Source: a bacterium (GTDB taxonomy: Bacteria; Eisenbacteria; RBG-16-71-46; CAIMUX01). From it: a stretch of 64,000 nt of DNA. Positions 8,908 to 29,630 of this stretch are shown here, piece after piece; positions within the stretch are counted from its first letter, which is position 1, and each line of letters starts with the position of its first letter. Where the stretch lies: positions 62,001 through 126,000 of the forward strand of contig JAUIHP010000011.1 in assembly GCA_030431975.1 (NCBI GenBank), given 5' to 3'. Position numbers and translations under genes: made by a program. The notes under the pieces were generated by a model. It ran no database searches. It had not been told where the DNA came from and saw only the letters and a program-made list of their open reading frames with translations.

Positions 8908-10155
8908 ATGAGTTTGAAGCAAACAGGATGGGCAGTGGGTGTCGCGGCCATGGCCGGGGCCTTCGCACTGGTCAATCCGGCTGTTGCCGACACGACGACA
9001 GTGAACGGGGCGCTCAAGTTCAAGAGCGACGACGGACAGTTCACCGCACAGGTCGGTGGCCGAATCATGCAGGACTGGGCCTTCATCAAGGCCGACAACG
9101 ATGCCAAGGCCGTCTTCGGCGCACAATCCATTGACGGCACAGAGTTGCGCCGGGCCCGTCTTTTCGTTTCCGGCACGATGTACGGAAACGTCGGCTACAA
9201 GGCGCAGTACGACTTTGCCGGTGGAGTCGTCGTCCCCAAGGATGTCTACATCGAGCTCAAGAAGACTCCGGTCGGTGCGATTCGCGTCGGAAACTTCTTC
9301 GAGCCGTTCTCTCTCGAAGAGGTCACCAGCAGCAAGTACATCACGTTCATGGAGCGGTCTCTGGTCACGACCTTTGCACCCAGCCGCAACATGGGGCTCA
9401 TGGTTCACGGTTCGATGGCGGACGGCCGCGGAACCTACGCAGCCGGAATCTTCCGTGACGACTCCGGATTCGATGCCATCGAATCGGTCGAGAACGCAGC
9501 GTACTCCGAGACCGCACGTCTGACGTTCACTCCGCAGAACGAGGACGGAGGTCGACGACTCATCCACGTGGGAGCCGGCGCTACGCTTCGGCGTCCGAAC
9601 AGCAAAGCTGTCCGCTACCGGGTGCGCCCAGAAACCCACCTGTCCGGGCGACTTTTGGATACCACGGCGATTCCGGCTGACCGAGTCCTCGGACTCGACT
9701 TCGAGGGCGCAATGGTCGCCGGCCCGCTCTCCGTGCAGGGAGAATTCGCCATGGTCAGTCTGACCGCGCCGGACAGCGACGGAAGTGGACGCGGCGGAGC
9801 GGCCGAAAGTCCGGAACCGACCTTCAACGCGTTCGCCGCGTCGGTCTCCTACTGGGTGACGGGCGAGCACCGTGCGTACAAGAACGGATCCTTTTCGAGG
9901 ACCAAGCCTCTCAAGAACTACGGCGACGGCGACGGATGGGGTGCGCTGCAGCTCGCCGCCCGTTTCTCGAGCATCAACCTCGACCACGATGACGTTCCGG
10001 TCGGCACCATGAACGACATCACGCTCGGGGCGAACTGGCACCTCAATCCGCAGGCCCGGGTCATGGTGAACTACGTGCTGGCGTCTCCGGAAACCTCGGA
10101 CGGTGACAGCGGGACGGTCAACGTCCTGCAAACCCGTTTCCAGATCGACTTCTAG
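8908..10155 (+). CDS. Phosphate-selective porin, OprP/OprO family
   Basis: This 415-residue protein has a signal peptide ending near AVA-DTT. The body is typical of OprO/P porins: GGRIMQDWAF near the N-terminus, then GTELRRARLFVSGTMYGNVGYKAQYDF, VYIELKKTPVGAIRVGNFFEPFSLEE, and a terminal strand ending in aromatic F (LQTRFQIDF). It should form an outer-membrane channel for phosphate or other anions. It lies between phoR and pstS and carries candidate PhoB boxes upstream, so induction on phosphate starvation is likely. Confidence 0.87.
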   Translation: MSLKQTGWAVGVAAMAGAFALVNPAVADTTTVNGALKFKSDDGQFTAQVGGRIMQDWAFIKADNDAKAVFGAQSIDGTELRRARLFVSGTMYGNVGYKAQYDFAGGVVVPKDVYIELKKTPVGAIRVGNFFEPFSLEEVTSSKYITFMERSLVTTFAPSRNMGLMVHGSMADGRGTYAAGIFRDDSGFDAIESVENAAYSETARLTFTPQNEDGGRRLIHVGAGATLRRPNSKAVRYRVRPETHLSGRLLDTTAIPADRVLGLDFEGAMVAGPLSVQGEFAMVSLTAPDSDGSGRGGAAESPEPTFNAFAASVSYWVTGEHRAYKNGSFSRTKPLKNYGDGDGWGALQLAARFSSINLDHDDVPVGTMNDITLGANWHLNPQARVMVNYVLASPETSDGDSGTVNVLQTRFQIDF

Positions 10156-10263
10156 CCCAAGCCCAAGGTCGATGATGTGACAAACAGCCCTCAACCAGGT
10201 TCTAAGCTTATGGAAAGTAACGGGTTGTCGGTGGAGCCAAACTCGCCACCTCCACATCATCTA

Positions 10264-10285
10264 CTAACAAATCACTAACAGCCCA
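10264..10285 (+). promoter_or_regulatory. Candidate PhoB box before pstS
   Basis: CTAAC occurs at 10264 and again 11 nt later at 10275 (CTAACAAATCACTAACAGCC). The minus-strand reading of the upstream porin site is CTAACAAATGCTTAACGCC, so the two sites agree closely. The box lies 47 nt before the pstS start. A 9-bp inverted repeat (GATGATGTG at 10171, CACATCATC at 10253) precedes it; its role is unknown. Confidence 0.6.
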
Positions 10286-10331
10286 AATGTACTGTTCTCG
10301 TGGTTAGGAACTTTCGGGAAAGGAAACGAAC

Positions 10332-11294
10332 TTGAAGAACTTGATGGGATTCGCAACCGCAGCCTTGATCCTGGCCAGCGGTGCTCACGCAGGTGACCTC
10401 CACCACTACTCCAAGACGGACGGGGTCAGCGGCAATCTCAATTTCATTGGCTCCGACACCTGTCTCAACCTGATGACGCTGTGGGGAGAGGCCTTCCAGG
10501 AGCAGTATCCCAACGTGCGGATTCAGGGCGAGGGCAAGGGTTCGAGCACGGCCCCGCCGGCGCTGATCGAAGGAACGGCCCAGCTGGGTCCCATGTCCCG
10601 GGCCATGAAGGCGTCCGAAATCGATGCCTTCGAAGAGAAGTTCGGGTACAAGCCGACAGAGTTCCGCGTAGCCCTCGACGCTCTCGCCGTCTACGTCAAC
10701 AAGGACAACCCCATCGCCGACACGGGACTGACCCTTCCCCAGGTCGACGCCATCTTCAGCCAGACCCGGAAGGGCGGCGAGAGTTCTGACGTCAAGACCT
10801 GGGGCGACGTAGGAGTGAAGGGCGAGTTCGCGGACAAGCCGCTCAGCCTCTACGGACGAAACTCCGCCTCGGGCACCTACGGCTTCTTCAAGAAGAAGGC
10901 TCTCTTCGAGGGCGACTACAAGGACTCCGTGAAGGAGCAGCCCGGATCGGCGTCCGTCGTTCAGGGCGTGGAAAACGATCGGTATGCCGTCGGTTACAGC
11001 GGAATGGGATATTCCACGAGCGGTGTCCGCAAGGTCCCTCTGGCGAAGAAGCCCGGAGACTCGTATCATCCCGCCGATGTCGAGATGGTTCTGAGCGGTG
11101 ACTACCCGCTCGGTCGCTTCCTCTACATCTACTTGAACAAAGCCCCGAATGAGGAGCTCGATCCCCTCGTTCGAGAGTTTCTGTCCTTCGTCTTCAGCCA
11201 TGAGGGACAGGCCCAGGTCGAGAAAGCCGGATTCATCCAGGTCCCGGCCCAGGTCGCGGAGCAGGAGATCAAGAAGACTGCGAAGAGTTCCTAA
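10332..11294 (+). CDS. pstS: Phosphate ABC transporter substrate-binding protein
   Basis: This 320-residue periplasmic protein starts at TTG after an AGGAAACG site; MKNLMGFATAALILASGAHA is the signal peptide. It has PstS features: GSDTCLNLM early, GKGSSTAPPALIEGTAQLGPMSR, and the phosphate-site segment GRNSASGTYGFFKKKAL. It feeds the PstC/PstA/PstB importer encoded next. The order porin, pstS, pstC, pstA, pstB, phoU and the shared box suggest a PhoB-controlled operon. Confidence 0.9.
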   Translation: MKNLMGFATAALILASGAHAGDLHHYSKTDGVSGNLNFIGSDTCLNLMTLWGEAFQEQYPNVRIQGEGKGSSTAPPALIEGTAQLGPMSRAMKASEIDAFEEKFGYKPTEFRVALDALAVYVNKDNPIADTGLTLPQVDAIFSQTRKGGESSDVKTWGDVGVKGEFADKPLSLYGRNSASGTYGFFKKKALFEGDYKDSVKEQPGSASVVQGVENDRYAVGYSGMGYSTSGVRKVPLAKKPGDSYHPADVEMVLSGDYPLGRFLYIYLNKAPNEELDPLVREFLSFVFSHEGQAQVEKAGFIQVPAQVAEQEIKKTAKSS

Positions 11295-20567: not shown

Positions 20568-21683
20568 TTAGGAGCCGATCCGGCTCCGCAGAGAAAGACT
20601 TACGGCGTACCCGCTCAGGTCGCGGTCCTTCATCAGCTCCGCATCCTCCTGCCCCCAAAGGCGGAGGGCTTCCAGACGCAGGTGAGCTCCGGCAATCGTC
20701 GTCGAGAGCGTCGGGCCGACTCCGAAGCCCGACCCGTCCCGGGTCGACTCCTCGCTGCCGGAGAACCGGCTCCACTCGGAGCTGAAGCCCAACCACCACG
20801 GGCCCCCCACCCGGTACTCCGAACCCACCCGGGCTCTCAGGCTGTTCCCGGCATCGATCTCGGTGGGAACGGAATTGATGAAGATCTCGTGGGTGTCTTC
20901 CCGTCCGAAGTAAACGTCGGCGCGACCGGCCACGGAGCTCGATGAGAACCAGAAGCCTCCGTCGGCGAGGACGTAGTTTCCTTCGCGGAAGACTTTCTCG
21001 CCGCCGACTTCGTCATCGCCGAGCACGCGATAGGAGACAGTGGCATCGAGTCCGTGACGAACGGAACCATCTCCGAATGGGGACTTGGCCTTCACTCCGA
21101 GAGAGAAGCGGACTTCGTCGGAAGGATCGTAGGAATCGTCTTCTCGGAAGACATTGTATTCACCGCGATAGTTGTATCCCGCGCTCGCCCCGAGACTCCA
21201 CGTGCGGGAAAGCGCCGACTGAACGGCCACGGCGGCGGAAAGATCGAAACCGCTTCCGTGTTCCGGAACGGCGAATCCAAGTACCGGCGAGGCCATGCGG
21301 GCGGATGTCGCACGGTCGGCCTCTTCGAGCCCGTCCCCGCCGGAAGGAAGTCCCGCTCCCAACACGAAAAGGACGCGCTTGTCGGCGAACGAGCGAAACA
21401 GGTCAAAGCGAGCGTCGGCCATCCCACCGAGTTCGAGGTCCGCTCCCGAATTGGCGGCCTTGCCCGAAACGACGATGCGTGTGGCCTCGTCGAGGTGAAC
21501 GGTGCTGACGAAAGGCACGACAAATTGCGAGTAGGTGACCGAAGTTCCGTCCTTCGCTTCGGAAGTCCAGGAGCGGAACTGCGCGGGGACGCGAACGCCT
21601 CCGCTCAGGGCGGCGTGGGCCGATCCGGTCGACAAGGACAGGGCAAAGGCAAACGCGAACGCTGTACACCAGGAGGGTCGCAT
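20568..21683 (-). CDS. Outer-membrane beta-barrel protein
   Basis: The ATG at 21683 overlaps the upstream stop as TGATG, indicating translational coupling, and gives 371 residues; an ATG 6 codons upstream is less likely. A signal peptide (ending SAHA-ALS) is followed by alternating hydrophobic strands rich in Tyr, Trp and Gly, such as WSLGASAGYNYRGEYNVF and WWLGFSSEWSRFSG. The C-terminus, AVSLSLRSRIGS, lacks the usual final aromatic residue. Size and pattern fit a 12-16-strand barrel. It is encoded with a CsgG-like lipoprotein, so an export or envelope assembly role is an inference. Confidence 0.7.
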   Translation of the reverse strand: MRPSWCTAFAFAFALSLSTGSAHAALSGGVRVPAQFRSWTSEAKDGTSVTYSQFVVPFVSTVHLDEATRIVVSGKAANSGADLELGGMADARFDLFRSFADKRVLFVLGAGLPSGGDGLEEADRATSARMASPVLGFAVPEHGSGFDLSAAVAVQSALSRTWSLGASAGYNYRGEYNVFREDDSYDPSDEVRFSLGVKAKSPFGDGSVRHGLDATVSYRVLGDDEVGGEKVFREGNYVLADGGFWFSSSSVAGRADVYFGREDTHEIFINSVPTEIDAGNSLRARVGSEYRVGGPWWLGFSSEWSRFSGSEESTRDGSGFGVGPTLSTTIAGAHLRLEALRLWGQEDAELMKDRDLSGYAVSLSLRSRIGS

Positions 21684-23200
21684 CACGGGCGGCCTCCCCA
21701 TGGAGTGTCCGGGAAGCCCGGAAGTCCAGGCTCTCCTCCGGAGGACGGAACCTCCGGGCCGCGCACGTCGGGAGTTGCGACAGGATCGGTTCCACCCGGC
21801 TCGCCCGCGTCGACGGTGTCGCCGTCATCCGGGTCGGGGCTCTCGGAAACGCGAATGACGAGATCATCGAGCACATCCGGAGACTCAGCCGGCTCGGTCA
21901 GAACTTCGATCTGCGCCTTGTCGATGTTCTCCGGATCCTCGCCGCCAGCTTCGACGACTTCGAGACGTTCGAGCGGCTCCTGAAACGCTTCATCGATGGT
22001 GGCCGCCTCCTGATAAGCCGCGATGGCTCCCGGAAGGTCGCCCTCATCTTCCAGACGCAGTCCCCGGCCGTAGGCAAGAAGCGCGGCCAGGCTGCCGGTG
22101 GCCAGACGGTCGATGCGTTCCCGCTCTTCCTCTGTCGGCTCGATGCCGAAGTGGCGCAGGATCTGATAGACCAGCGTCTTTTCCAGCCGCATGACGTTGG
22201 CCAGTCGTCCCTGAACCGGGTCTCCCGCCACGGAGGACACACCGTCGAGGGTCTGCATGATGTCCGCGCTCAGTTCGATGCTCTGGTTTCCGACACCCAG
22301 GAATGCGCCCTGGATCAGATGGCGGGCGCCCAGGACCCAACCGGCCTCGGACGCACGTTCGGACGGCACCGAAGTCATGGAGCGGACAGTGGCGGTGTCA
22401 GGGTCGGAGTCGGAACCGGAACCAGGGTCAGGGTCCGAGCCCGAATCGGAGCCGGGGCCGGAGTCAGGGTCCGAGCCCGAGTCGGAGTCGGTAGCGAGGT
22501 CAGGGGCAACCCGATCGCTCTCCTGCAGGGCCAGCTCGTCCAGCAGCGTCTGAAACTGAATGCGCTCGAGGACGCGGAACTCTTCGACCTGCGATAAGTC
22601 AGTGGTAAGGATGGCAGCCAATCCGCGCGAAAGGCTTTCCAGCCGCTCGTTCTCTCCCAGGTTGGCGAACGGGCTGACGGCGACCGTCCCCTGTTGGGGC
22701 AGGTTGGCGTTCAGACTGTCGGCCGTGGCAGCTTCGAAGGCTCGCGCCACCCGCAGGCGATGACGAGTGATCTCGCGCCGCTGCTCTTCCATCTCCCGAA
22801 CGACCCGGGAGTTCTTCTTTCCGCCGGCAGCCAGGTAATCGGAATAGGCCTGTAGAGACTCTTCGGCGCGGCCGGATCGGGCTTCGGTCCGCCCCAACAG
22901 CAGGAACGCTTCCGCATCGGCGGGATCAATCGCAACGGACCTGCGAAGCGACGCCCGAGCCTCGTCCAAGCGTCCCAACTGCAGAAGGGCGGCGCCGATG
23001 TTTCGCGCGATGATGGAATCCTGCGGGTTGCGGGTCCGCTCGGCTTCGTAGGCAACGACGGCGGCAGAGTAGTCTCCCTGACGAAGGAGAGCATCCGCGG
23101 GGCTGAGAGCCCGGGGTGCGCAGGCGGCGAGGGTGCCGGTGAGCGCCACGAGCTGCAAAGCTTGGGAGGTCCGTCGTGAAAGCAACAGAGCGGGCGGCAT
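21683..23200 (-). CDS. TPR lipoprotein with CsgG-like domain
   Basis: The start at 23200 opens a lipoprotein signal (LTGTLAACAP), giving 505 residues; a longer frame exists but would bury the signal. TPR repeats occupy residues ~30-130 (GDYSAAVVAYEAERTRNPQD, LGRLDEARASLRRSVAIDPAD). A CsgG-like domain follows: VAVSPFANLGENERLESLSRGLAAILTTDLSQ, then RVLERIQFQTLLDELALQES. A low-complexity Ser/Asp/Gly/Pro linker interrupts it before GARHLIQGAFLGVG and AYGRGLRLEDEGDLPGAIAAYQEA. CsgG proteins form outer-membrane secretion channels; LpoB-like relatives do not. It is translationally coupled to the downstream barrel. Confidence 0.75.
   Translation of the reverse strand: MPPALLLSRRTSQALQLVALTGTLAACAPRALSPADALLRQGDYSAAVVAYEAERTRNPQDSIIARNIGAALLQLGRLDEARASLRRSVAIDPADAEAFLLLGRTEARSGRAEESLQAYSDYLAAGGKKNSRVVREMEEQRREITRHRLRVARAFEAATADSLNANLPQQGTVAVSPFANLGENERLESLSRGLAAILTTDLSQVEEFRVLERIQFQTLLDELALQESDRVAPDLATDSDSGSDPDSGPGSDSGSDPDPGSGSDSDPDTATVRSMTSVPSERASEAGWVLGARHLIQGAFLGVGNQSIELSADIMQTLDGVSSVAGDPVQGRLANVMRLEKTLVYQILRHFGIEPTEEERERIDRLATGSLAALLAYGRGLRLEDEGDLPGAIAAYQEAATIDEAFQEPLERLEVVEAGGEDPENIDKAQIEVLTEPAESPDVLDDLVIRVSESPDPDDGDTVDAGEPGGTDPVATPDVRGPEVPSSGGEPGLPGFPDTPWGGRP
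22380..22497. repeat. In-frame low-complexity repeat in the CsgG-like gene
   Basis: About 118 nt consists of 6-nt units encoding alternating Ser/Asp/Gly/Pro dipeptides (SD, SG, PD). It interrupts the CsgG-like domain in a loop. The repeat keeps frame, so copy number changes would alter loop length only. Confidence 0.85.
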
Positions 23201-23407
23201 CGATACGCCCGCCGACACCTTGCGGAGACAGAAACGGAGTGGACTTGAATTCAAACTCTTCGACCTCCATTGCCCGGTAGGCTCCCGGGTCAGGCGCGAG
23301 AGGGAGATTAGCCGACTCCGATGGGACCAAACAACACCACTGGACCTAGGCTCGGCGCGGTAGACTCCCGGAACCAAGTGGCCAAAGAACCCGGCGAGGA
23401 GGGCAAG

Positions 23408-24031
23408 TTGGCGGAAGACAGCGGCAGCGAAAAGGGACTGCATTGCCTGGGCGGCCAGGCTCCACCCGAAGCGTTGGAACACGGCTGGCAGGCTTTGGAA
23501 GGTTTGCCCAAGGGCGACGCCTCCGCGGCGTTCTGGGATCTGTTGGGTGCGTTTCTTTCAGAGCCTGGGCACCCGTCCCACGACCAGCTGCTCCAGAGTT
23601 ACGTGGACACCCACAAGGTTGACGTCCAGGAAGTCCTGACCGCCATGGACGCGTGCAACCAACTACTGAACCAATCTGTCGCCTTGGACATCTCGGACGC
23701 GCACTTTCAGGAGGACGTGGAGACTCTTGCGGGTGGGAAGACGGCCCAGGGGGTGGAACTCATTCGCCGCTACGCCGGCGCTCGCCCCGTTCTTCGTCGG
23801 CGTGTCATCGAAGAGTCGCTTTCGGATCACGGCAACGTGTTGGTGGGGCTCGACTGGAGGCTCGACCGGGTCGAAGCCTCGGATCGCGGCAACCAGCTCA
23901 ACGCTTCGGTCGTTTTCCTCACACTCAACTATCGCGACCGGGATGACGTCAAACGGATCACGCTGCAACTCGTGCCTGAGTCCCTGCAGCTGCTCAAGTC
24001 GTTCACCGACCGGTTCGGCGGCCAGGGCTAA
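23408..24031 (+). CDS. COMM-domain-like protein
   Basis: The TTG at 23408 after GAGGAGG gives 207 residues; a longer frame from 23321 lacks a good ribosome site. Residues ~1-125 look wholly helical (LEGLPKGDASAAFWDLLGAFL, VDVQEVLTAMDACNQLL). Residues ~145-203 read GLDWRLDRVEASDRGNQL, ASVVFLTLNY, DVKRITLQLVPESLQLLKSF. This matches the order of the COMM domain: a DWR(V/L)D strand, two more strands, and a C-terminal helix rich in Leu. COMMD proteins have the same two-domain layout and length of ~190-200 residues, and in eukaryotes they act in endosomal sorting. The gene is divergent from the CsgG-like operon and converges on the T6SS-type island. The function here is unknown. Confidence 0.6.
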   Translation: MAEDSGSEKGLHCLGGQAPPEALEHGWQALEGLPKGDASAAFWDLLGAFLSEPGHPSHDQLLQSYVDTHKVDVQEVLTAMDACNQLLNQSVALDISDAHFQEDVETLAGGKTAQGVELIRRYAGARPVLRRRVIEESLSDHGNVLVGLDWRLDRVEASDRGNQLNASVVFLTLNYRDRDDVKRITLQLVPESLQLLKSFTDRFGGQG

Positions 24032-24052: not shown

Positions 24053-24078
24053 GCCGTAGCATTCGAAGCGGCTACGGC
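24053..24078. terminator. Hairpin between convergent genes
   Basis: GCCGTAGC (24053-24060) pairs with GCTACGGC (24071-24078) over a 10-nt loop, between the convergent COMM-like and DUF4150 genes and over the DUF4150 stop. There is no T tract on either side, so a shared terminator role is only possible. Confidence 0.4.
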
Positions 24079-24491
24079 GAGACGATCACCTTGGTTTGGC
24101 TGGGCGCAACCTGAACCCCTGCCGGCATGTTAGGGCTGGATCCGTTGTGCGCGGTCGGCGCCGTCAGATGCGTGACGGCCTTACCCTGCACTTTGACCTT
24201 CGAACTGCCCTTGGTCCACTTGACCTTGCTCATGTTCATCCCGGAAGCGACGCCTTTGTTCACTCCCGGTTCGTCGCCCATCGAGCGGCTCATCTCCGAA
24301 CCGTCGCTGCAGGCTTCCTTTTTCTTGAACTTGACCTTGGTCGACGTCTTCTTCGTTTGGTTGACCATTCCGGTGTTGGGATAGGGAATGGGCACGGGCG
24401 ACGGAGCCGGCGGCGCCGGAGTCAGACAGACGTCGGGAAAGGCGAAACAGGTTCCGCCGCCTTTGCTCGATGCTGGAAAGATAGCAACCAT
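24072..24491 (-). CDS. DUF4150 PAAR-like spike protein
   Basis: The ATG at 24491 gives about 139 residues. It starts MVAIFPASSKGGG, has the family pattern of C-x-x-PDVCLTP...P.PIPYPN, and ends APTAHNGSSPNMPAGVQVAPSQTKVIVSP. DUF4150 proteins are PAAR-like tips that sharpen a VgrG spike in type VI secretion; PAAR-like proteins are also found in other contractile systems. It follows the DUF3540 gene with a 4-nt gap-free overlap and closes the minus-strand island led by vgrG. No toxin domain is attached. Confidence 0.85.
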   Translation of the reverse strand: MVAIFPASSKGGGTCFAFPDVCLTPAPPAPSPVPIPYPNTGMVNQTKKTSTKVKFKKKEACSDGSEMSRSMGDEPGVNKGVASGMNMSKVKWTKGSSKVKVQGKAVTHLTAPTAHNGSSPNMPAGVQVAPSQTKVIVSP

Positions 24492-24493
24492 GA

Positions 24494-25282
24494 TCAACCC
24501 AACTCGATCTGTTCGCCGTCGATCTTGAAATCGCGCTTGGAACGCAGGTTGGCCTTCTCGGACCGCAACTCGTAGGTCGAGTCGACAAGGACACGGCGGC
24601 GTCCGGTGCGGAGTTGACTGAGTTCAGTGACCTGCGCGTAGACGCCGTTCGCTTTGGAGATGACCGTCTTGGCGACCGTCTCCAGCCTGCCGGCGACCGT
24701 CCGAACCAATCCGACGGCAAACTCGATGCGCGTCCCCTCGAACTTCGTCTCCTCCAACTTGACCCGGGCTCGCTCCGACTCGATTTCGAGTTCGCGACTC
24801 TCCAGACGAATTCCGGCTCGGCTCTTCAGTGTCATCCCGCGATCGGCATCGATCTCGAGATGACCCGCCGGGTGGACCGTGGATCGGTCGCAAGTTCCGT
24901 CGTATTCGAAGACGATCGCGCCCCTCGCATTGCGAACTCGGATGTGTCCGTCTTCATCGAGATCTGCCGAGCTTCCATCGTGGGCCACGAGTCTCGGGGA
25001 TTCCGGATCACGGTTCGATTTCTCCAGAACCGAAAGCACGTAGACCGTTTCGTCGGGAGACCCGGCCACGAGCACGCGGTCCCCGGGCTGCAATTCCATG
25101 GTCGGAGTGCACGGCACGGAGACCCGGGTGTCGCCGCTCCCGTCGCCGGAATGGCCTGCGGCCTCGAGCATGACTTCACTCGTGGAGGAGTCGGGGTCCA
25201 CACTCAGCACGACGGCAGGACCGAAGATGGGCGCAACCCGTGTCCCCAATGGATCCATATTCATCTTCGACTTCGTAATCAT
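24494..25282 (-). CDS. DUF3540 T6SS-associated protein
   Basis: The ATG at 25282 follows GGAG and gives 262 residues. The N-terminal beta-rich half (PIFGPAVVLSVD, VSVPCTPTMELQPGDRVLVAGSPDETVYVLSVLE) resembles the OB-fold style of DUF3540, and the C-terminal half is an extended repeat of charged beta strands (SRAGIRLESRELEIESERARVKLEE). DUF3540 genes occur with vgrG, DUF2169 and DUF4150 and may help assemble or load the spike; that role is from genomic association. Confidence 0.8.
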   Translation of the reverse strand: MITKSKMNMDPLGTRVAPIFGPAVVLSVDPDSSTSEVMLEAAGHSGDGSGDTRVSVPCTPTMELQPGDRVLVAGSPDETVYVLSVLEKSNRDPESPRLVAHDGSSADLDEDGHIRVRNARGAIVFEYDGTCDRSTVHPAGHLEIDADRGMTLKSRAGIRLESRELEIESERARVKLEETKFEGTRIEFAVGLVRTVAGRLETVAKTVISKANGVYAQVTELSQLRTGRRRVLVDSTYELRSEKANLRSKRDFKIDGEQIELG

Positions 25283-25394
25283 ATGGTCATCTCCGCGCAA
25301 CATGGCTTCGTGGGACTATGGGACTCCGTAACCGAGAAGTACCGTCCGTAGAGTTCAGATCCGTGTCTTTGACTTCTTTGTCGGGTCAGGAACT

Positions 25395-27311
25395 TCATGG
25401 CCTTGGGGGTCTCCAGTTCTCCGCTTCCATCAGGTACGGGTCCGTGCCTTCGGCGCCGCTGCGATCCGCACCTGACCAGTTCGCCCCCGCGTCGACGATA
25501 CGGTGAAGCACAGCCTGGCGGAGATCGGCCTTGGTGAAGTCCGCCCGTGAAACGTCGGCCCGGGAGAGGTCGCAATACCGAAGACCCGTCCCGAGAAACT
25601 TGGCCCCGGCACACTTGGACTGGACAAACTCTGCGCGTTCAGCCCGCGCGGCGGTTAGATCCGCTCGCTCGAGCGACGCCTTGACGAACGAACAACCTCG
25701 TAGGTCAGCCTGGCGAAGGTCCACTTCATCCAGGGTCGCCCCAGTGAAGTCCGCGCTTCGACAGTCCGCGCCCGAAAGAGACGCTCTCCGCAACGACGCA
25801 CCGTGGCAGGTGATCTGCTTCAGCGTGGAACCTCCGAATCGCGACTCATCGAGTTTGGCTTTCTTGAACTCGCAGTCGGTCAGATCCAAGCCGGAGAAGT
25901 TCATCCCGGACAAGTCGGACTCGGTGAAGTTGCAGAGGTTGAAAGAGGTACCCTCCAACCGAATGGAGCGAAGGTCTACGCCGACAAACGCGGTCGTTCC
26001 CACTTTGGCCGACTGGAGATCGATGCCTTCGAGGTTGGCTCCCTCGACATCGCACTGCTCGAGTTCCGCTTCCGTGAATCGAGCCCGAGCGAGATTGGAC
26101 TTCGCGAAATCGACGCCTTCGAGTTTGCTCCCCCGGAAGCTCACGCCTTCGAGATTGCACTCACTCATGTTGACATCGACAAGAGTGGCCGCATCGAAGG
26201 TCGCCTCGACCAGTATCGAACCGAGGAAGTTCGCTCCGGTAAGGTCCATTCGCGAAAAGTCGACGGCCCGCAGCGAGCATCGGGAAAGGATCACGTCCCG
26301 AAGGTCGGTTCCCTGAAAACGTGCCCGATCGAGTCGACAGTCCTCGAATGCAGTCTGCTCGAAACCGGACTGCGTAAAGTTGCCCGACGTCAGTTCGCAA
26401 CTCTGGAACCGAGTCCGCGCCAATTGGGCGCCGGACAGGTTTCCATTCGAAATCTCGCATTCCTTGAAGAGAGTTTCAGAAAGATCTCCGGACGAGAGGT
26501 CCGTGTCCCGAAGGTCCGCACGGAGGACACGGGACTTCGGCAGTCGGTTTCCGATCTTGGCACTGCTGAGGTCGACACCCTCGATCAGGCACTCGCTGAG
26601 TGCGGGCGCCTGAATGGCGAGTTGATCCGCCGTCCCTCCCCGCAACCGATTCTCCTCGAAAGCCGAGGTCCGAATCTGACTACGGTCGAGAGTGTTCCGA
26701 TCGAAATCGATCCGACGAATCACCTCGGACGCCAGAACTCCGTCGGTCATCTCGCAGGTTTCGAAGCGGGTATCCAGAATCTCGCAGTCCTGGATTCGAA
26801 ACCCGGGAAGCTGCGTTCCGACGATCTCCGTATCGTGAGCTTCCCCACCCGTCACCGAAAGCCCGGAAAGGCGGGAAGTACCGTTAGGAAACACCGCGGA
26901 GTCCAACTTCGAAAGGACCGACATTTCCTCCGGCTCCAGAAGAAGCGGATGCCGCTCGTCGGACCGGATCTTCATGTAGCTGAGGTTGGAGGCTTCGAAG
27001 TGGATCCCGTCGGCCTCGCAATTGGTGAGGATCGCGCCGCTCAAGTCCGTCTTTACGAAACGCGCGCCGCTGAGCCCGACTTCGTTGAGGTCGACCCCCG
27101 AAAGCGCGCAGTGTTCGAACAGAGTTGACGTCAGGTTGACCCCCAGGAAGGTCGTCCCCAGGAACTTGCCATTGCGAATCGTCAACCCGGACAAGTCGAG
27201 TCCGGCGATTCGTAGCCCGGTGAAGTCCTTTCCCGAGTTGAGGGCCGCAACGAACTCGTCCTTGGACTTGAACGCACTGATCGGGAGCAGCCGCGAAGCG
27301 ATGTCTACCAC
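25395..27311 (-). CDS. Pentapeptide-repeat protein
   Basis: This 638-residue protein is almost wholly pentapeptide repeats of the A(D/N)LXX type (for example LSGVDL, NLSGAQLARTRF, LEGVSFRGSKLEGVDF), which fold as a right-handed quadrilateral beta-helix. The number of units is large, over a hundred. No catalytic domain is visible. It is 83 nt downstream of the DUF2169-pentapeptide gene and upstream of DUF3540, in the same operon. Stand-alone pentapeptide proteins in T6SS islands have been linked to effector or adaptor roles; a cargo or scaffold function here is speculative. Confidence 0.85.
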   Translation of the reverse strand: MVDIASRLLPISAFKSKDEFVAALNSGKDFTGLRIAGLDLSGLTIRNGKFLGTTFLGVNLTSTLFEHCALSGVDLNEVGLSGARFVKTDLSGAILTNCEADGIHFEASNLSYMKIRSDERHPLLLEPEEMSVLSKLDSAVFPNGTSRLSGLSVTGGEAHDTEIVGTQLPGFRIQDCEILDTRFETCEMTDGVLASEVIRRIDFDRNTLDRSQIRTSAFEENRLRGGTADQLAIQAPALSECLIEGVDLSSAKIGNRLPKSRVLRADLRDTDLSSGDLSETLFKECEISNGNLSGAQLARTRFQSCELTSGNFTQSGFEQTAFEDCRLDRARFQGTDLRDVILSRCSLRAVDFSRMDLTGANFLGSILVEATFDAATLVDVNMSECNLEGVSFRGSKLEGVDFAKSNLARARFTEAELEQCDVEGANLEGIDLQSAKVGTTAFVGVDLRSIRLEGTSFNLCNFTESDLSGMNFSGLDLTDCEFKKAKLDESRFGGSTLKQITCHGASLRRASLSGADCRSADFTGATLDEVDLRQADLRGCSFVKASLERADLTAARAERAEFVQSKCAGAKFLGTGLRYCDLSRADVSRADFTKADLRQAVLHRIVDAGANWSGADRSGAEGTDPYLMEAENWRPPRP

Positions 27312-27374: not shown

Positions 27375-29630
27375 CTACCGTTTGGACGGATCCTGCACCG
27401 TCATCCGAAGGTTGGTCCCTTCCCCCACCGTGGAAGAAAAGACAGCATCCAGAAAGTTGACCCCGTACATGTTCGATCCGCTGAGGTTCGCTTCCGTAAG
27501 GTTGGACTTCTGCATACTTCCCTGGAAGAGATTCATCGTGCGTAGTTCCGCCCGGGTCAGATCGGCCTTCGAGAAGTTTGACTCCGGCATGTTGGCACAG
27601 TTGAGCTTCGCGCCGACGAGCGATGACTTCTTGAGGTCGGCATCTTCGAGGTCTGCGTAGGAAAAGTCAGCGCCGTCCAGCCGAGTCTCCACCCAAATGG
27701 ATCCGACACCCTTGGCCTGCCGAATCGAGGCTCCCGTCAGGTCGCCGGAGTTGGCCCGGAACAAGGTCAGGCCAGCGGCATCGAGCACGACGCGGTGGGC
27801 GCGAACCTTCGACCAGTTACACGACTCGAGCAACGCTCCCTGGCAATTCGCTTCCGTAAGAAGAGCCTCGACAAAGAACGCGGACTTGAGATTTGCCTTT
27901 TGCAGGGAAGCGCCCCTCAGGTTGGCCATCTCGAATCCGGCACTCTCCGCCTGGATCTCGTCCAGTCGGGCGCCCTGAAGATTGGCCATCTCGAACGAAG
28001 CCTCAGTGGCCTCGGCCCCCGTGAAGGTCGCTTCGATCAGCTTCGCGCCGCGGAAGTCCGCTCCAACCAGCTTCGCCGTCGCAAACACCGTCCGGACCGC
28101 GGATATCCCGGACAGATTGGCCTGCTCGAGGCTGGCGCCGGAGAGCGTTGCCCCGTCCAGATCGGCCTGAACCAACAGAGCGCCGTCGAGCTTCGCGTTG
28201 GAGAGATCGGTGTTTCGGAGGTCGGCGCCCCGAAGGTCCGCCTCCGGCGCAACGAGGCCGGCGAGATTCAGCCCACGAAGATCCTTGAACGCAGCCGACT
28301 CACCGGCGGCCAGTCTCTTCTCGAGTTCTTCGCGGGTTTCGATCCTCTCGCGACCGGCCGGGTCTTCCTCCGGTTCGGGTGGCGTGCCGTCATCGCTCGG
28401 GGCGAACGTTGCCGGCGGAGCGGATGTACCGGATGGACTTGGTGGACCGGTCGGACTTGGTGGACCGGTCGGAGCGCGCGACCCGGTCGGCTCGGACGGC
28501 CGGGCGGAGTTCGCCAACTTGGGGACGTCTTCCCACAGTGGAGGCGGCGGCTCTTCTTCGTCGTCGCCGTAGACCTCCCGCAGCATCTCGGGGATCAACG
28601 CCTGCAACTCTTGTGGCGCGGCCGGCGCGTCGCCAACTCGGTGCGAAGTCACGAGGATCTCCCCGATCTCCGCAAACTCCTCGTCCCGGACTTCCGTCAG
28701 TCCGCGCCACACCAAAGTGACGGTTTCCGCATCCATGTCGACAAAAAGCGTATCCAGATTCATCGGCACTTCCCGAAACGGAGGTGGACCCGAAGCCGGC
28801 TTTTCCTGGATGAAGGCTCGGACGGAAAGAGCCGGCAACTGCGAACGGTACTCGCCGTGTTCCGGATGAACGTTCTCGAGAAAGAGTTCTTCATCACCCT
28901 TCAGGTACGGAGCCTGTTGGTCCAAAGGAGCGCAGTTGAAGAACCCCCAGTCGAAGTCCTGAGGAAACGCCGGAAACCTCGTCTTCAGCCAATCGCCTTT
29001 GTACGAGCCGACCTTACGGAAGCGGTCCTCCCACATTCTCCCCAAGGGTCCGAAACCTACGGGATCCGGTTTGTCCCGGTTCGACTTGATCAGCTGAGCG
29101 GGATTCTCGAGATTGGGAAGCAGCTGCGCTTTGCTGCCGTCGTCACCTTCGGTTTTGCCGGCGCCCTTGCCAGACGGGTTTTTCTTGAATCCCGGTCCAC
29201 CGAAAGAGTTCTCATACCGTAGCGGCATCTGAGAAAACGGTTCGGGGTCCGTCTGTCCCCCGAAGAGACCGCCTTTCCAACGACGGTCACCGATGACGCC
29301 CAGCGTCTTGCGGTAGGGCCCCACGCAAAAAGTTACGCGGGAAACGGTCGCGCGCCCGCCGGGTGGATGGCACGACCCGGAAAGCAGCAGGTCGGTCCTT
29401 GGCTTGAAAGGAGCAAAGTCGTTCTCGTACCGCGGAGCGCCTTCTCCCTCTTCATCATCTTCGAACGGTTCGTCCCCGGTCGGACCCGGCTGTTCTTCCA
29501 AAACTTCGGCGACACCGCCCGGAATGAGTCGAAAGGTCCCCTTCACGATCAGACTGAGAGTATGGCCCGGATGATTCTTCTGATGGGCCACGTAGGCAAA
29601 CTTGAAGGGTGTTCGGTTGAGGATGTCCAA
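27375..29630 (-). CDS. DUF2169 domain fused to pentapeptide repeats
   Basis: This 751-residue protein starts with a DUF2169 domain (residues ~1-320): NRTPFKFAYVAHQKNHPGHTL, KGTFRLIPGG, RYENSFGGPGF, and DWGFFNCAPLDQQ. A Pro/Thr/Ser linker with an 18-nt repeat follows (residues ~380-420). Pentapeptide repeats (LRGADLRNTDLSNAKLDGA) fill the remaining ~300 residues. DUF2169 proteins are associated with T6SS VgrG modules and may act as loading chaperones. The fusion suggests the pentapeptide region is carried on the spike or used to present cargo. It lies 30 nt downstream of vgrG. Confidence 0.85.
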   Translation of the reverse strand: MDILNRTPFKFAYVAHQKNHPGHTLSLIVKGTFRLIPGGVAEVLEEQPGPTGDEPFEDDEEGEGAPRYENDFAPFKPRTDLLLSGSCHPPGGRATVSRVTFCVGPYRKTLGVIGDRRWKGGLFGGQTDPEPFSQMPLRYENSFGGPGFKKNPSGKGAGKTEGDDGSKAQLLPNLENPAQLIKSNRDKPDPVGFGPLGRMWEDRFRKVGSYKGDWLKTRFPAFPQDFDWGFFNCAPLDQQAPYLKGDEELFLENVHPEHGEYRSQLPALSVRAFIQEKPASGPPPFREVPMNLDTLFVDMDAETVTLVWRGLTEVRDEEFAEIGEILVTSHRVGDAPAAPQELQALIPEMLREVYGDDEEEPPPPLWEDVPKLANSARPSEPTGSRAPTGPPSPTGPPSPSGTSAPPATFAPSDDGTPPEPEEDPAGRERIETREELEKRLAAGESAAFKDLRGLNLAGLVAPEADLRGADLRNTDLSNAKLDGALLVQADLDGATLSGASLEQANLSGISAVRTVFATAKLVGADFRGAKLIEATFTGAEATEASFEMANLQGARLDEIQAESAGFEMANLRGASLQKANLKSAFFVEALLTEANCQGALLESCNWSKVRAHRVVLDAAGLTLFRANSGDLTGASIRQAKGVGSIWVETRLDGADFSYADLEDADLKKSSLVGAKLNCANMPESNFSKADLTRAELRTMNLFQGSMQKSNLTEANLSGSNMYGVNFLDAVFSSTVGEGTNLRMTVQDPSKR
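28435..28470. repeat. 18-nt tandem repeat in the DUF2169 linker
   Basis: There are two exact copies of an 18-nt unit starting GGACTTGGTGG. It encodes P-T-G-P-P-S in the linker between DUF2169 and the pentapeptide region. Confidence 0.85.

Follow-up and report, generated by a model that had tools for sequence, protein, structure and literature searches.

A bacterial COMMD homologue encoded beside a type VI secretion spike locus

The gene at positions 23408 to 24031 of a 64,000-nucleotide stretch of an Eisenbacteria genome (the window; contig JAUIHP010000011.1, positions 62,001 to 126,000) encodes a bona fide homologue of the COMMD proteins, and bacterial genes of this family are recurrently linked to the spike locus of a type VI secretion system (T6SS). 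Both the family membership of the window protein and this linkage are well supported, and it seems likely that bacterial COMMDs are an accessory component, a chaperone or a scaffold, of the Class III Tvp-type T6SS spike locus. In human cells, COMMD proteins take part in the recycling of cargo. COMMD9 was described in eLife in 2018 as structurally similar to the chlamydial protein CT584/Cpn0803 (PMC6089597), and a 2023 survey in Cell concluded that COMMD homologues are absent from Bacteria and Archaea and arose on the eukaryotic stem (PMC10187114). The original prediction treated COMMDs as mainly eukaryotic and thereby implied novelty; PDB entries available since October 2025 already contain bacterial COMMDs (9za1 and 9za2 from Sorangium cellulosum, 9q6a/9q6c from Flavobacteriaceae). 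Bacterial COMMDs as such are thus already known, and it is the T6SS spike-locus context that appears new. In the open literature (bioRxiv and closed journals lay outside this scope) we found no paper on bacterial COMMD structures and nothing relevant joining COMMD with VgrG or type VI secretion.

The open reading frame runs from a TTG codon at 23408 to a stop at 24031 and encodes 207 residues; the start is sound, because a perfect AGGAGG lies 5 nt upstream of it. An alternative ATG at 23321 would give a protein of 236 amino acids, with the addition falling outside the stretch conserved in homologues. The opposite strand is interrupted by stop codons in the facing frame, and the hydropathy of the protein reveals no hydrophobic segment suggesting a signal peptide or a membrane anchor. 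The length of the protein and the DWRLD motif from residue 149 are as first described, and in the alignment of relatives D149, W150, R151 and D153 are invariant.

The assignment to the COMM-domain family had been made by eye, and profile and structure comparisons bear it out. The COMM-domain hidden Markov model PF07258 matched residues 143–196 with 24.7 bits (E=2.6e-5), above its curated cut-off of 22.4, and scored 27 bits when the genome was searched; a phmmer search of PDB sequences returned 9za1 (E=1.7e-32) and 9za2 (E=1.3e-31), both titled "COMM domain-containing protein", so that the match is beyond chance. A Pfam match to KNOX1 fell below the cut-off and was set aside as noise. The window protein is about 34–36% identical to the S. 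cellulosum proteins of 9za1/9za2, and the mean column identity over 35 bacterial COMMD sequences is 41%. A profile built from these 35 rows and searched against PDB chains retrieved nine of the ten human COMMDs, namely COMMD7 (4e-10), 4, 1, 2, 5, 8, 3, 10 and 9, and not one non-COMMD chain at E<=0.1; the alignment to human COMMD7 is nearly full-length and spans both domains. The window protein is therefore a new member of a bacterial branch that has already been crystallised.

The single-chain AlphaFold model, built from the 35-row alignment, has a pLDDT of 92.5 and a pTM of 0.75, and both the HN and the COMM domain known from COMMDs were recovered in it. The predicted two-domain layout stood, with six helices in the N-terminal half (residues 21–141, the HN domain); the C-terminal part, for which two strands had been proposed, contains three long ones in a beta-beta-beta-alpha fold (strands 144–158, 161–177 and 180–188, helix 190–204), with the tryptophan of the motif in the first strand. 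Foldseek ranked human COMMD7 first (E=8.9e-11), and after it came further human COMMDs as well as the octamer 9q6a/9q6c from Flavobacteriaceae; identity to COMMD structures was 10–25% in these alignments. The N-terminal domain of COMMD9 (4oe9) was also matched, with a probability of 0.94 and a poor E-value. The TM-scores were moderate over the whole chain (0.65 at best), while COMM-only chains superposed at root-mean-square deviations of 1.2–2.5 A, which suggests that the angle between the HN and COMM domains of the model differs from that in the matched COMMDs.

HN plus COMM layout, length and fold are common to the window protein and to eukaryotic COMMD1-10 of the Commander/CCC complex (PF07258). 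Bacterial genomes, however, carry one to four COMMD copies rather than ten, linked to T6SS spike genes; CCDC22, CCDC93 and Retriever partners were not named in the annotated loci, and no genome-wide search for them was made. COMMDs characteristically form obligate dimers or larger assemblies through the COMM domain. As to the bacterial structures, 9q6a/9q6c (protein MBK5214510) are titled octameric, and 9za1 and 9za2 contain eight chains per entry. The Flavobacteriaceae protein shares the COMMD-like fold by fold comparison, and it constitutes a distant branch, since neither phmmer nor the bacterial profile retrieved it by sequence. Over the printed alignments, the sequences of 9za1 and 9za2 correspond to two loci of S. 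cellulosum So0157-2 (L011 and L010, respectively). The 9za2 gene lies 61 bp from a VgrG gene, whereas the copy encoding 9za1 stands apart from VgrG islands. At the end of both deposited chains, the final strand and helix of the L010 protein are repeated; this extra segment is absent from the natural genes and is probably a feature of the constructs. Chlamydial CT584/Cpn0803, with its reported COMMD9-like structure, is a different case: Cpn0803 reportedly interacts with parts of the type III secretion apparatus and with lipids (PMC6089597), and the protein, reported from chlamydia only, was absent among the matches listed by our sequence and fold searches.

A single-sequence scan of genome contigs detected no relatives, and an alignment with two PDB relatives was needed to find them. 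Seeds from the window and these relatives led to 15 bacterial loci in Myxococcota, Gemmatimonadota, Planctomycetota (Phycisphaeraceae) and Acidobacteria (Mor1), to which whole-genome searches added further ones; no COMMD was found in viral contigs. The counts of genomes with COMMD genes were 15 of 379 in the phylum of Sorangium (with weak or partial matches in three of the 15), 4 of 298 in that of Gemmatimonadales, 1 of 392 in that of Phycisphaeraceae and 1 of 297 in that of Acidobacteria; all are lower bounds, as scoring was confined to the candidates that ranked best in a preliminary look. Among 47 genomes of the window's own phylum the window genome was the only carrier, and neither the single protein nor the 35-row profile revealed a second COMMD there. 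The family is sparse in the scored samples. Clear full-length bacterial homologues in several phyla contradict the conclusion of the 2023 survey that no bacterial homologues exist (PMC10187114).

The loci used for the analysis of neighbourhoods were picked by COMMD sequence alone (two weak partial matches, L074 and L075, were excluded from the counts), and all-against-all clustering of their neighbours showed that the recurring ones form a single island, whose Pfam names are VgrG, DUF2169 with pentapeptide repeats, pentapeptide protein, DUF3540 and Tox-PAAR-like. When VgrG, DUF2169-pentapeptide, DUF3540 and PAAR-like (PIPY) genes were counted, at least one lay within 10 kb of 33 of the 39 COMMD genes (28 of 34 loci), often within 100 bp. 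The original prediction had taken its hints from both sides of the gene; the VgrG island proved to be a conserved context, but none of the other COMMD loci has the CsgG-like gene, which looks incidental, and a CsgG-like envelope operon was rejected as the functional context. The order of island genes varies across phyla, yet COMMD mostly occupies one of two placements. It lies either directly 3' of vgrG on the same strand (at 36 bp in L062, L064, L065 and L067, and at 61–95 bp in L009, L010 and L012) or at the PIPY end in convergent orientation (at 15–19 bp in L004, L007 and L008 of Gemmatimonadota; 40 bp in the window, with 47 bp between the domain matches). The proteins of L007 and L008 are identical and L062, L064, L065 and L067 are close kin, so the independent cases are somewhat fewer. 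Five loci carry two COMMD genes each; in the tree, each subunit of the L063 pair has its counterpart in the L076 pair, and the L070 and L071 pairs correspond in the same way, which suggests hetero-oligomers in these loci.

With the number of DUF2169 genes per genome as background, 25 of 33 COMMD loci lay near a DUF2169 gene against 1.5 expected (nominal P 4e-29). Where a genome has only one to three DUF2169 genes, so that the background is negligible (seven genomes), 6 of 7 COMMD loci were linked against 0.07 expected (P 2e-12); the window genome has a single DUF2169 gene, that of the island. The T6SS sheath family PF05943 was detected in each of the 26 genomes that carry a full-length COMMD (in one of them, G211, only as a weak match) and in 8 of 36 COMMD-negative genomes. 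In a tree of 80 DUF2169 domains, the COMMD-linked ones cluster (15 changes against 26 after shuffling, with none of 500 shuffles as low), but COMMD-less islands are interspersed among them, so COMMD is an optional component of particular island sublineages and not a core part.

The window and most COMMD loci contain all five gene types of the Class III Tvp system (VgrG, TvpAB, TvpB, TvpC and a DUF4150 PAAR protein), which was defined from Serratia in 2026 (PMC13373197), and the window island also matches synteny type C of PMC11883445. The papers on these systems do not mention COMMD, which is here an extra component in several phyla. In Class III/type C systems, DUF2169 is reported to act as the chaperone of the PIPY tip. 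DUF3540 (TvpC) first forms a pre-complex and is later replaced there by VgrG, and the accessory complex is made complete by pentapeptide proteins; secretion of TvpAB or TvpB has not been detected (PMC13373197, PMC11883445). We infer the biochemical step of COMMD in spike assembly as follows. The protein would oligomerise through its COMM domain, like the solved bacterial relatives, would remain in the cytosol rather than being itself secreted, and would work with the DUF2169, DUF3540 and pentapeptide proteins, holding VgrG or the PIPY tip, along with any cargo, while the spike is assembled. It is plausible that COMMD would grip extended segments of VgrG, PIPY or cargo, because in human Commander unstructured stretches of CCDC22/93 contact the COMMD ring extensively (PMC10187114).

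Several observations weigh against a role in the spike locus. The Serratia Class III system was described without COMMD (PMC13373197), and many DUF2169 islands lack it, including that of G003, whose DUF2169 is nearest to the one in the window. The window COMMD gene is convergent with its island and thus outside its transcription unit. Six of the 39 COMMD genes are detached from islands: four belong to Sorangium, one of these lying on a contig of 4.1 kb, and the other two share a Polyangiaceae genome. Finally, the P values for linkage are nominal and ignore shared ancestry, although the linkage recurs in several phyla.

The position of COMMD beside VgrG and PIPY genes, a frequent site of T6SS cargo genes, could also mean that the protein is itself secreted and mimics eukaryotic COMMDs so as to interfere with Commander in eukaryotic prey or predators; its homology to eukaryotic COMMDs spans both domains, and many of its carriers are Myxococcota. 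Such a role is unlikely. An intact family kept across several phyla (with the identity over 35 sequences given above) and the conservation of tandem paralogue pairs point to a structural part more than to a rapidly evolving effector, no recognisable T6SS recruitment domain is fused to COMMD, and its similar likeness to several human COMMDs, rather than to one, argues against recent capture from a eukaryote. We consider it very unlikely that COMMD confers immunity to a toxin carried by the adjacent VgrG or PAAR protein. Its gene is often the next one downstream of vgrG, the site at which the immunity protein Vai1 is encoded in Serratia (PMC13373197), but Vai1 consists of an inner-membrane helix and a periplasmic body whereas COMMD is cytosolic by hydropathy, the partners vary (PAAR with an S41 peptidase in Myxococcota, a bare PAAR in the window) while COMMD is conserved, and the window gene is not co-transcribed with the convergent island. 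Both explanations are less likely than that of a spike accessory.

The detached copies, among them the four of Sorangium that follow a gene without a recognised domain and in three cases have a histidine-kinase-type gene on the other side, would fit a general cytosolic protein, for example a lipid- or metal-related one, whose linkage reflects hitch-hiking on mobile islands. The recurrence of the linkage in several phyla, mostly in the same two placements and sometimes at 15–60 bp, together with T6SS sheath genes in every COMMD-positive genome checked, makes this quite improbable. Bacterial COMMDs add a candidate component to the recently described class of T6SS spike-assembly systems, and their linkage to one molecular machine offers a testable COMMD function outside eukaryotes. 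A more far-reaching idea, which we regard as doubtful, is that COMMDs arose, or at least have their main prokaryotic role, as oligomeric chaperones in T6SS spike assembly, and that a bacterial protein of spike assembly, acquired before the last eukaryotic common ancestor, gave rise to the Commander ring of eukaryotes.

Table 1. Features in and around the COMMD locus of the window.
Feature	Coordinates	Strand	Basis or remark
TPR + CsgG-like lipoprotein gene	21683-23230	divergent from COMMD	followed by two genes without Pfam match
Shine-Dalgarno AGGAGG	23397..23402	+	direct reading; perfect; 5 nt before TTG start
COMMD homologue: HN-type helical domain (residues ~11-141) and COMM domain (~143-204)	23408..24031	+	profile, predicted structure, fold comparison
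PAAR-like / PIPY spike-tip protein, 141 aa, no effector extension	24072..24497	-	Tox-PAAR-like PF13665 E=1.2e-35
DUF3540 protein (TvpC-type)	24494..25303	-	PF12059 E=4.9e-29
Pentapeptide-repeat protein, stand-alone (TvpB-type)	25395..27311	-	Pfam
DUF2169 + C-terminal pentapeptide repeats (TvpAB-type)	27375..29630	-	PF09937 E=6.2e-89
VgrG, 843 aa	29661..32192	-	Phage_GPD + Phage_base_V

The detached Sorangium COMMD genes (L006, L011, L014 and L016) stand directly after a gene whose product (590 aa in L011) matches no Pfam family, and in three of these loci the histidine-kinase-type gene comes next, on the other strand. DUF2169 islands of the COMMD clade that lack COMMD also occur in Sorangium genomes (L105, L116), and the detached copies may serve islands of this type in trans.

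The composition of the islands varies in other genes as well. The COMMD-linked PIPY/PAAR-like proteins of Myxococcota carried a C-terminal Peptidase_S41 domain in all nine cases scanned (L013, L015, L064, L066, L069, L070, L071, L073 and L076), while the window tip is bare. A protein cluster of about 500 aa (c5) was found in 12 loci, among them L060, L062, L063, L065, L068, L070-L073 and L076, mostly between vgrG/COMMD and DUF2169; the one member scanned had no Pfam match, and the cluster is possibly a further spike accessory or cargo. In L002, a transglutaminase-like gene (10136-11008) lies between the COMMD and PIPY genes.

The T6SS sheath of the window genome is represented by two PF05943 genes on contig C52, close together at 154029-164979 (G000:C52). 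Similar pairs are present in many T6SS genomes, often on opposite strands and with a strongly divergent second gene, and may mark an unusual two-sheath type of T6SS.
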